From NCBI RefSeq assembly GCF_002310375.3, contig NZ_CP023315.3, positions 2,046,001 to 2,110,000 of the forward strand: a stretch of 64,000 nucleotides of DNA, given 5' to 3'. This stretch comes from Caulobacter vibrioides. GTDB lineage: Bacteria; Pseudomonadota; Alphaproteobacteria; Caulobacterales; Caulobacteraceae. Of the stretch, positions 24,828-56,342 are shown in pieces. The notes beneath the pieces are model-generated. The model ran no database searches and was not told the DNA's origin. It saw only the letters and a list, made by a program, of their open reading frames with translations. The position numbers and the translations under genes were made by a program. How positions within the stretch are numbered: the first letter of the stretch is position 1; every line of letters starts with the position of its first letter.

Positions 24828-24917
24828 GGACAGGTGGCCGAGTGGTTTAAGGCAGCGGTCTTGAAAACCGCCGTAGGTGGAAGCCTACCGTGGGTTCGAA
24901 TCCCACCCTGTCCGCCA
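24828..24917 (+). tRNA. tRNA-Ser (anticodon UGA)
   Basis: A 90-base class II tRNA with encoded CCA. Acceptor arms GGACAGG and CCTGTCC pair perfectly, followed by G and CCA. The anticodon loop is CTTGAAA between GCGGT and ACCGC, so the anticodon is TGA, reading UCA/UCG. A long variable arm (GTAGGTGGAAGCCTACC) and T-arm GTGGG-TTCGAAT-CCCAC complete the fold. The serine identity follows from the anticodon and long variable arm. Confidence 0.98.
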
Positions 24918-53722: not shown

Positions 53723-54847
53723 TCAGGGCTGAACGATCCGTCCACCCGTCATAGGCGCTTTCACGCCCGTGGTCCCCGGGAAGCTGATCGGCAGGCCCTT
53801 GGCCGTGCGGGCGGCCAGATAGGCGAAGGCCTCGGCCTCGATGCTGTCGCCGCGCCAGCCATAGGCCTCGGCGCTCTTGACCGGTACGGGCGCGCGCGTG
53901 GACAGGGTCTGCATGATCGCCGGATTATGTCGCCCGCCGCCGCAGACGATCAGGGCGCTGGGCGCCTCGCCGGTCTGGGCGAAGGCCTTGAACACCGCCT
54001 CGGCGGTGAAGGCCACCAGGGTCGCCGCCGCATCCTCAGCGGAGAGATGATCGACCGGGGTCAACGAGAAGTCATAGCGATCCAGCGACTTGGGCGCCGG
54101 AGCGTCGAAGTAAGGACTGTCGAGCAGCGCCGCCAGCATGGCCTCATCCACGCGGCCGGCCAAGGCCAGACGGCCGTCCTCGTCGAAACGGCCAAGCCCC
54201 CTCGCCTGCAGCATCAGATCGATCATGCCGTTGCCGGGGCCGGTGTCGAAGGCCAGCAAGTCGCCGTCCGCGCCGATCAGGGTGATGTTGGCCACGCCGC
54301 CGACGTTCAGCGCCGCCACCGGGGCGGCCAAACCCGAGGCTCGGGCGCGGGCGGCGTGGTAGATCGGCGCCAGCGGCGCGCCCTCGCCGCCGGCGGCGAC
54401 ATCGGCGGTGCGGAAGTCAAACGCCACCGGACGCCCGCAGAGGCGCGCCAGGCGATCGGCGTCGAGCAGTTGCACCGTGCGCCCCACCCGCTGCGCCGTC
54501 GGGCGCTCGTGAAGGACGGTCTGGCCATGCACGCCCAGCAGGTCGAAGTCGCTCCAGCTCAGACCGTGCTCATCCAGAAAGCTCTCGGCGGCATGGAAGT
54601 GCTCGTCGGCCACGGCGCGCCGGGCGTCGTCGAAGATCGCCGGCTCAGGCTCACCCCGCGGCCAGGCGCGGGCGATGTCGGTGCTCTCAAGCAGCAGGTC
54701 GCGGGTGGCCTCCCGCAACTTGCGCTCGCCCGCCGGACCAAAGGCGTGAATGTCGACGCCGTCCGTTTCCAGCACCGCCATGTCGACCGCATCCAACGAG
54801 GTGCCGGTCATGAATCCTAGGATCTTCATGGGAACGTTGACTGCCAT
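53723..54847 (-). CDS. anmK: Anhydro-N-acetylmuramic acid kinase
   Basis: A protein of about 374 residues that phosphorylates 1,6-anhydro-MurNAc during peptidoglycan recycling, giving MurNAc-6-phosphate. The N-terminus KILGFMTGTSLDAVDMAVLETDG is the hallmark. VHGQTVLHERPTAQRVGRTVQLLDADRLARLCGRPVAFDFRTADVAAGGEGAPLAPIYH and VAALNVGGVANITLIGADGDLLAFDTGPGNGMIDLM, plus VCGGGRHNPAIMQTL, complete it. Start is uncertain among ATGs at 54874, 54847 and 54829; I chose 54847. It is divergent from tyrS, and a possible leader peptide for tyrS lies between them. Confidence 0.94.
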   Translation of the reverse strand: MAVNVPMKILGFMTGTSLDAVDMAVLETDGVDIHAFGPAGERKLREATRDLLLESTDIARAWPRGEPEPAIFDDARRAVADEHFHAAESFLDEHGLSWSDFDLLGVHGQTVLHERPTAQRVGRTVQLLDADRLARLCGRPVAFDFRTADVAAGGEGAPLAPIYHAARARASGLAAPVAALNVGGVANITLIGADGDLLAFDTGPGNGMIDLMLQARGLGRFDEDGRLALAGRVDEAMLAALLDSPYFDAPAPKSLDRYDFSLTPVDHLSAEDAAATLVAFTAEAVFKAFAQTGEAPSALIVCGGGRHNPAIMQTLSTRAPVPVKSAEAYGWRGDSIEAEAFAYLAARTAKGLPISFPGTTGVKAPMTGGRIVQP

Positions 54848-54872
54848 GCCCGTTAAACGGTAGCTAGGCCCC

Positions 54873-54923
54873 ATGATCGACGCTCTTGTCCTGGCCCGCC
54901 CCTATTACCGCCCGCTGCCATAG
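54873..54923 (+). CDS. Candidate tyrS leader peptide (16 codons with two adjacent Tyr)
   Basis: A short frame upstream of tyrS reads MIDALVLARPYYRPLP and then stops (TAG 54921-54923). Two Tyr codons lie side by side, as in attenuation leaders. The stop lies in the loop side of a stem CCCGC (54911-54915)/GCGGG (54923-54927). GCGGG can instead pair with CCCGC in the downstream CCCCCGC. A further hairpin CCCC-N8-GGGG (around 54953-54968) is possible. These mutually exclusive pairings fit ribosome-mediated control. The ribosome site is weak (CTAGG), and a T-run after the last stem is missing, so the case is only suggestive. The gap from the stop to tyrS is 162 bases. Confidence 0.4.
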   Translation: MIDALVLARPYYRPLP

Positions 54924-55085
54924 CGGGAGGCCGACCAGACACGTCGCTTAGCCCCCGCCTCGCCGGGGTCGCTTCAACACAGTCGATCATGCGCTCCGGT
55001 CACCCTTCCGGAGTCTGAAATGAACCCCTCACACACCGGCCAAGCCGTGCTAGACGGCCCGCCACGTCAAATAGAGAGTCGATCC

Positions 55086-56342
55086 ATGTCCGCCGCCTCG
55101 TCGTTCAAGTCAGAGTTCCTGCGAACCCTGGAGGCGCGCGGCTACATCCACCAGATCACCCATCCGGAGGAGCTGGACACGGCCGCCTCGGCCGGGATCG
55201 TCACCGCCTACATTGGTTTCGACGCCACGGCGCCGTCTCTGCACGTCGGCAGCCTGATCCAGATCATGCTGCTGCGCCGCCTGCAGCAGGCCGGCCACAA
55301 GCCGATCGTCCTGATGGGCGGCGGCACGACCAAGGTCGGCGATCCCACGGGCAAGGACGAAAGCCGCAAGCTGCTGAGCGACGCCGACATCCAGGCCAAT
55401 ATCGCGGGCATCAAGACGGTGTTCTCGAAGTTCCTGACCTTCGGCGACGGGCCCACCGACGCGATCATGGTCGACAACGATGTCTGGCTGTCGAAGTTCG
55501 GCTACGTCCAGTTCCTGCGCGAGTACGGCGTGCACTTTACGGTCAACCGGATGCTGGCGTTTGACTCGGTCAAGCTGCGCCTGGAGCGCGAGCAGCCGAT
55601 GACGTTCCTCGAGTTCAACTACATGCTGATGCAGGCGGTGGACTTCCTGGAGCTGAACCGCGCCCACGGCTGCGTGCTGCAGATGGGCGGTTCGGACCAG
55701 TGGGGCAATATCCTCAACGGCGTCGAGCTGACCCGCCGCGTCGACCAGAAGAGCGCCTTTGGCCTGACGACGCCACTCCTGGCCACCGCCTCGGGCGCCA
55801 AGATGGGCAAGACGGCCGCCGGCGCGGTGTGGCTGAACGCCGAACAGCTGAGCCCCTACGACTACTGGCAGTTCTGGCGGAACACCGAGGACGCCGACGT
55901 CGGTCGCTTCCTGAAGCTGTTCACCGACCTGCCGCTGGATCGCATCGCCGAACTGGAGGCCCTGGAGGGCGCCCAGATCAACGAGGCCAAGAAGGTGCTG
56001 GCCGACGAGGCCACGCGCATGGCCCATGGCGAGGAGGAAGCCCGCAAGGCGCGCGACGCTGCAGAAAAGGCGTTCGAGCAAGGCGCGCTGTCGGCTGACC
56101 TGCCGACCTATGAACTTCAGGCAGAATTCCTGAAAGAGGGGATTATTCTTGCCGCTTTAGCTGGCGACGCCTTCAGTCAGTCGCGAGGCGAGATACGGCG
56201 CCTGGCGCAGGGTGGCGGCTTGCGGGTCAACGACACGGCGATTGGCGATGCGAACGTGAGGATCACCGAGGCCGATCTGGTTGATGGTGTCATCAAGCTT
56301 TCGGCGGGCAAGAAGAAGATCGTGTTGGTGAAGCCTGTTTAG
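55086..56342 (+). CDS. tyrS: Tyrosyl-tRNA synthetase
   Basis: A 418-residue class Ic aminoacyl-tRNA synthetase that charges tRNA-Tyr. [31 protein letters not shown] holds the HIGH-like HVGS motif, and [14 protein letters not shown] holds the KMSKS-like [25 protein letters not shown] belongs to the tyrosine pocket. The C-terminal S4 domain ([26 protein letters not shown]) binds the tRNA arm. The start is the ATG of [11 protein letters not shown], with AGAGAG upstream; the open frame begins 22 codons earlier. It is divergent from anmK. Confidence 0.96.

Follow-up and report, generated by a model that had tools for sequence, protein, structure and literature searches.

The tyrS gene of Caulobacter vibrioides is probably controlled by ribosome-mediated attenuation that senses Tyr, acting mainly on translation through a relay of hairpins in the mRNA leader. 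The gene lies in the window, that is, the whole stretch of 64,000 nucleotides analysed here. The basis of the relay in the sequence consists of a leader ORF, its Tyr codons, the spacing of a promoter, five covarying pairings, and the position of the tyrS Shine-Dalgarno inside the hairpin 5:6; the leaderless start, the stalling, the direction of the response, and translation as the regulated step are what we infer from it. A preliminary description had proposed a Tyr-codon attenuation leader before tyrS. This proposal is supported, since the Tyr codons are kept in relatives and the stems covary. The features are as follows.

54837–54868, plus strand: predicted promoter P1, with TTGAC (−35) at 54837–54841 and GCTAGG (−10-like) at 54863–54868
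54873, plus strand: predicted +1 of P1, which is the A of the leader ATG
54873–54923, plus strand: leader ORF MIDALVLARPYYRPLP, 16 codons from ATG (54873) to the stop codon TAG (54921–54923), predicted to be leaderless
54903–54908, plus strand: putative regulatory Tyr codons TAT TAC, codons 11–12 of the leader ORF
54911–54916, plus strand: segment 1, CCCGCT, whose pairing with segment 2 covaries
54922–54931, plus strand: segment 2, AGCGGGAGGC, pairing with segment 1 or 3
54946–54958, plus strand: segment 3, the 5′ arm of hairpin 3:4, in which GCCCCCGC (54951–54958) pairs with segment 2
54962–54972, plus strand: segment 4, the 3′ arm of hairpin 3:4, in which CCGGGG (54963–54968) can pair with segment 5
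54993–54999, plus strand: segment 5, GCTCCGG, pairing with segment 6 or 4
55008–55014, plus strand: segment 6, CCGGAGT, containing the Shine-Dalgarno GGAG (55010–55013) of the tyrS ATG at 55020
55020–56342, plus strand: long form of tyrS, with the predicted regulated start ATG at 55020
55048–55055, plus strand: promoter-like element P2, TGCTAGAC, in the N-terminal extension
55086–56342, plus strand: short form of tyrS, with the core TyrRS start ATG at 55086, likely made from P2 mRNA

Leader ORF, predicted promoter P1, and their conservation

The 16-codon frame with adjacent Tyr codons ending at a stem loop, as previously proposed, is confirmed at 54873–54923; its stop codon is located at the 1:2 stem, where CCCGCT (54911–54916) pairs with AGCGGG (54922–54927). 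TyrRS was found in 72 of the 75 genus genomes, and the 5′ region of tyrS was fetched for 70. A homologous leader precedes tyrS in 68 of these 70 loci, and 65 of the 68 leaders have adjacent Tyr codons, so that the conservation suggested as a check is found in relatives. The other three contain Tyr-His (L141), His-Tyr (L144), and Tyr-Ser-Tyr (L143, with an ATT start). A further 26 leaders come from 77 other loci, with TyrRS identity down to 60%. Tyr-Tyr is present in 89 of the 94 leaders overall (at codons 11–12 in 85, absent in five), a set that had been selected for Tyr close to the end of the ORF; with 65 of the 70, the genus loci provide the estimate least affected by this selection. The Tyr-Tyr codons in the set are TATTAC (80), TATTAT (6), and TACTAC (3).

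At the DNA level, the 94 leaders comprise 76 different sequences; they encode 65 different peptides, and YY is the sole constant column of the peptide, suggesting that the codons rather than the peptide are conserved. The leader is 16 codons long in 78 and 15 codons long in 13 of 95 leaders, as counted before one was dropped. The set was edited by hand: L078 (33 amino acids) was dropped, L143 was added, and the tyrS starts of L113–L115 and L122 were reset. Four duplicate loci (L001, L032, L033, and L035) were excluded.

The two genus loci without the leader, L025 and L151, should be noted. Judging from their sequences, they are genus members that lost the switch. At L025, an ORF at the place of the leader has no Tyr codon and continues to a stop codon inside the tyrS extension. 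At L151, the P1 box is found at its usual spacing, but before the tyrS ATG itself.

The sequence TTGAC is located 35–37 nt before the leader ATG in all 93 leaders with sequence there (exactly 36 nt in 70); the P1 region of the 94th leader, L007, is cut off by a contig end. With a transcription start on the A of the leader AUG, this spacing would place TTGAC at the −35 position. Only three of the 94 leaders have a Shine-Dalgarno-like tetramer ahead of their ATG. Because of these two observations, the leader AUG is probably the 5′ end of the tyrS mRNA, with the leader ORF being leaderless. An E. coli-type promoter scan of 54700–55200 gave no site, P1 included, and P1 is therefore assigned by its spacing and its conservation. 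C. crescentus has many leaderless mRNAs: the available part of PMC4117421 reports 375 of them and gives 75.4% as the share of start codons without a Shine-Dalgarno. A leaderless ORF is also described for the trp attenuator of Sinorhizobium meliloti in the available part of PMC10117765.

A palindrome, TTGACGCCGGTCAA, includes the −35 box of P1 in relatives that are Phenylobacterium-like or belong to Brevundimonas (loci L132–L134, L136–L139, L072, L093, and L186–L188); it is perhaps a pair of divergent −35 boxes or an operator. At 54829–54874 on the minus strand, P1 overlaps the upstream part of a divergent ORF. This minus-strand ORF, which we take to be anmK, probably has its true start at MKILGFMTG, not at the start of the longest ORF.

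We searched genomes of the order with a covariance model, R1, built from 29 sequences that begin one codon before the Tyr codons (two codons in L141). Neither the promoter nor the start of the ORF is part of the model; the Tyr codons are, and its ten base pairs belong to 1:2 and 4:5. It matches 23 of 150 genomes in 6 of 31 genera, at a single place in each: 11 genomes belong to the genus, eight are among the 20 genomes from other genera of the family, and four come from a second family. No match of R1 was obtained in the other 12 of the 20 genomes of the same family. We fetched 11 of the 12 matches outside the genus, and all 11 lie directly before tyrS, within a locus that has a 15–16-codon ORF and TTGAC 35–37 nt before its ATG. 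YY is present in 10 of these 11, and L182 has a single Tyr.

Pairings of the six segments

The six segments can form the hairpins 1:2, 3:4, and 5:6 or the exclusive alternatives 2:3 and 4:5. The Tyr codons come before segment 1, and the stop codon is found within the 1:2 loop or next to it. The alternative pairing of GCGGG pointed out previously is found here, with CCCGCT (54911–54916) upstream or with CCCGC (54954–54958) downstream, and the CCCC/GGGG hairpin is present at 54946–54972. The hairpin of GCTCCGG (54993–54999) and CCGGAGT (55008–55014) over the Shine-Dalgarno was absent from the preliminary description. Among 31 representatives, obtained by clustering the 94 leaders at 80% identity, this hairpin 5:6 is found in 30, being weak (−3.3 to −5.3 kcal/mol) in five, and in 28 its stability is below that of 4:5. 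In L044 and L083, the stem 4:5 came up in place of hairpin 3:4 when the latter was searched for. The long tyrS start has a Shine-Dalgarno-like tetramer ahead of it in 86 of the 94 loci.

Covariation was examined by an alignment-free test, in which the duplex energy within each sequence was compared with that after exchange of partners among sequences. With the 31 representatives, the counts per 10,000 are 0 (1:2), 47 (2:3), 0 (3:4), 8 (4:5), and 2 (5:6), and those of ten control pairings are at least 517; this test is not blind, as the hairpins were already known when the segment windows were set anew and the clusters were refined to 31. With 11 further sequences, for which the segment windows of the 31-set were left unchanged and the tyrS starts were set by hand, the counts are 1, 91, 244, 0, and 395 in the same order and at least 894 for the controls; since R1 contains pairs of 1:2 and 4:5, only 2:3, 3:4, and 5:6 are independent there. 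The pooled 42 sequences give 0, 2, 0, 0, and 0, and at least 786 for the controls. The control pairing 1:6 reaches 144 when only a subset of 27 is used. The nine distant clusters give 9, 1040, 671, 132, and 184, that is, 2:3 and 3:4 are no longer significant with only nine distant representatives. An earlier run with other segment windows and 12 clusters was weaker (577 of 5000 for 4:5 and 132 of 5000 for 2:3). As the sequences are related, the counts are not strict probabilities, though the controls share the same relatedness. In this comparison, the five pairings covary and the ten control pairings do not, and the covarying stems that had been put forward as a check are thus observed for all five pairings.

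Folding of the leader was calculated in two manners. In equilibrium folding of the full leader, the accessibility of the Shine-Dalgarno is unchanged by stalling (means 0.19 and 0.20; Wilcoxon p 0.82; 30 representatives), and in the window's leader it is 0.00 in every state. Equilibrium folding hence failed as proof of the switch and counts against a simple thermodynamic one. With no gain in accessibility at equilibrium, a switch would be needed that works while the RNA is being transcribed. In as-transcribed folding, the RNA extends up to segment 5, before the Shine-Dalgarno exists, and the stalled ribosome is placed at the second Tyr codon. Under stalling, 2:3 is favoured over 3:4 in 21 of 31 representatives and not favoured in 10, and 4:5 is higher than with the ribosome at the stop codon in 17 and lower in five. 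For the window, the expected pairs under stalling are 11.0 for 2:3, 0.0 for 3:4, and 10.3 for 4:5, so that 2:3 wholly replaces 3:4. With the ribosome at the stop codon, they are 4.7 for 3:4 and 5.1 for 4:5; as these are nearly equal, the off state of the window is only partial in the prefix model. As-transcribed folding, as a model, gives partial support to release of the Shine-Dalgarno.

Proposed hairpin relay, alternatives, and known systems

In the proposed mechanism, the tyrS mRNA would start at the AUG of the 16-codon leader ORF and be translated immediately. When Tyr-tRNA is abundant, the ribosome would reach the stop codon and mask segments 1 and 2; hairpin 3:4 would then form, segment 5 would pair with segment 6, and the tyrS Shine-Dalgarno would be closed. 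When charged tRNA-Tyr is short, the ribosome would stall on the two Tyr codons and mask segment 1 alone, in which case segment 2 would pair with segment 3, and segment 4 would take segment 5 before segment 6 is made. Segment 6 would remain free, with the Shine-Dalgarno open, leading to more TyrRS.

Classical transcriptional attenuation would instead make hairpin 3:4 a terminator, with stalling at the Tyr codons allowing read-through by RNA polymerase. Ten of the 94 leaders do have at least five T in the eight bases after 3:4; eight of the ten are genus loci (L003–L007, L009, L010, and L120), seven of them with 92–93% TyrRS identity to that of the window. Rho or a weak terminator could also serve such attenuation. 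However, the T-rich tail is missing in the other 84 leaders, the window has no terminator-like site within 54700–55200, and the pairings 4:5 and 5:6 around the Shine-Dalgarno, unneeded by a terminator alone, covary. We consider this explanation unlikely. A terminator as the main mechanism was rejected on the lack of a site and the rarity of the tail, though termination may contribute in some species that have the tail after 3:4. The missing T-run had been taken in the preliminary description as an argument for translation control, and the covarying hairpin over the tyrS Shine-Dalgarno supports this view.

The stalling itself might be ascribed to the nascent peptide rather than to the Tyr codons, as in the drug-inducible or SecM-like leaders. 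The near-constant length (15–16 codons in 91 of 95 leaders) and the common YYR context (R in 70 of 89) would suit an arrest peptide, but the residues on either side of YY vary, YY alone being constant, and the leaders with Y-H, H-Y, and Y-S-Y retain a Tyr codon and not a peptide motif; an arrest peptide appears extremely improbable. It is also conceivable, though highly improbable, that almost all functional tyrS mRNA comes from P2, the leader being a remnant. The P2-like element, TG[CAT]TANA, occurs between the tyrS starts in 78 of the 94 leader loci and before tyrS in 22 of 53 loci without a leader (1.2 expected from shuffles in each case), and L025 and L151 have lost the leader. Contrarily, YY, the promoter spacing, and the five pairings are kept across two families, which points to selection on the leader.

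The proposed relay resembles the trp, phe, and his attenuators of enteric bacteria (trpL, pheST, and his) in its short ORF with adjacent cognate codons, the stop codon at the first hairpin, the segment 2 common to 1:2 and 2:3, and the cognate gene downstream. The pheST attenuator controls a synthetase operon. The tyrS leader differs from these in that it would sense Tyr, has no T-run, probably has a leaderless ORF, and possesses two extra segments (5 and 6) that would relay the signal to the Shine-Dalgarno. The erm-type translational attenuators share the chain of hairpins that closes a Shine-Dalgarno and is opened by a stalled ribosome. Stalling in erm leaders depends on a drug and the nascent peptide, whereas Tyr codons would stall the ribosome on the tyrS leader. 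In the T-box tyrS leaders of Firmicutes, tyrS expression is likewise raised with uncharged tRNA-Tyr, but a T-box binds the tRNA directly and has no leader ORF, in contrast to the leader ORF before Caulobacter tyrS. Scanning of the whole window with Rfam at the gathering threshold gave no T-box and no family at the leader. The only Rfam hits in the window are the sRNA CC1840 (RF01521; 27788–27882, minus strand) and a tRNA gene (24828–24914, plus strand).

The part of a 2005 survey available (PMC1262725) names pheST, and names tyrosine as T-box regulated. The alphaproteobacterial attenuator trpL/rnTrpL of S. meliloti is similar in that its leader ORF begins at the first base of the mRNA; according to the available text it is a transcription attenuator of trpE, in contrast to the synthetase gene and the translational relay proposed here (PMC10117765). 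For C. crescentus, the text available from Schrader et al. (2014) describes an ilv leader and, on trpS, a leader CDS for which it gives no structure, the latter being in the same organism group and likewise before a synthetase gene (PMC4117421); tyrS has no occurrence in the main text of that paper. No description of a Tyr-codon leader for tyrS was found in the literature searched, the 2004 survey of proteobacterial attenuators lying outside it. The short tyrS leader would unite a codon-specific stalling step, an initiation that is probably leaderless, and a series of hairpins leading to a Shine-Dalgarno, in a group of bacteria whose start codons mostly lack one.

Possible TyrRS isoforms and leaders of other synthetase genes

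The codons of P2 should be noted. Of 80 extensions, 79 have NTA as the middle codon, with varying residues (VLD, VLE, VIQ, MIE, and VVE), as expected for a DNA element. We infer from the sequence a second promoter, P2, that would make a shorter TyrRS without the leader. Given this P2-like element at 55048–55055, part of the tyrS mRNA may start downstream of 54923. Of the 81 leader-bearing loci with an extension, 80 have it in frame with the TyrRS core. The lone out-of-frame long start, at L121 (68 nt), is either real or an assembly error. At L025, where the leader is lost, a stop codon interrupts the tyrS extension.

We also inspected other synthetase loci in the same genome, which we take to be those of TrpRS, ThrRS, SerRS, ProRS, HisRS, ValRS, IleRS, LeuRS, CysRS, MetRS, and PheRS. 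Upstream ORFs with the cognate codon were found by eye before the Trp, His, and Ile genes.

G000:C1, about 65325, minus strand: trpS leader MAVIGLHAPRWRGSH, 15 codons, with Trp at codon 11 (loci L219–L248)
G000:C1, about 3888707, minus strand: hisS leader MTRTPHHHGHHHHPTSPRGIGRVRAL, 26 codons, with seven His codons (loci L189–L218)
G000:C1, about 795460, minus strand: ileS leader MSSVRKISRIIRPA, 14 codons, ending with Ile-Ile-Arg-Pro-Ala (loci L249–L278)

A leader of the same type is found in 29 of 30 genus loci for trpS (the best 30 of 58 genomes with a match) and in 30 of 30 for hisS (the best 30 of 59). For ileS, the same-type leader, with RIIRPA, is found in 24 of 30 (the best 30 of 57); some candidate ORF is present in 26 of the 30 loci, two of these being unrelated. 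The joint reading, in which a six-segment leaderless Tyr relay controls the long TyrRS, P2 makes an unregulated short TyrRS, and the ileS, trpS, and hisS leaders similarly sense uncharged tRNAs in Caulobacterales, has, in our estimation, slightly under an even chance of being correct as a whole. If it is true, a single tyrS gene gives a regulated and a constitutive isoform. Taken with the ileS, trpS, and hisS leaders, the tyrS leader makes the adjustment of synthetases in these bacteria directly testable. Cognate codons followed by Arg and Pro are common to the tyrS (YYRP) and ileS (IIRP) leaders, and the ileS leader has the same build as the Tyr leader.
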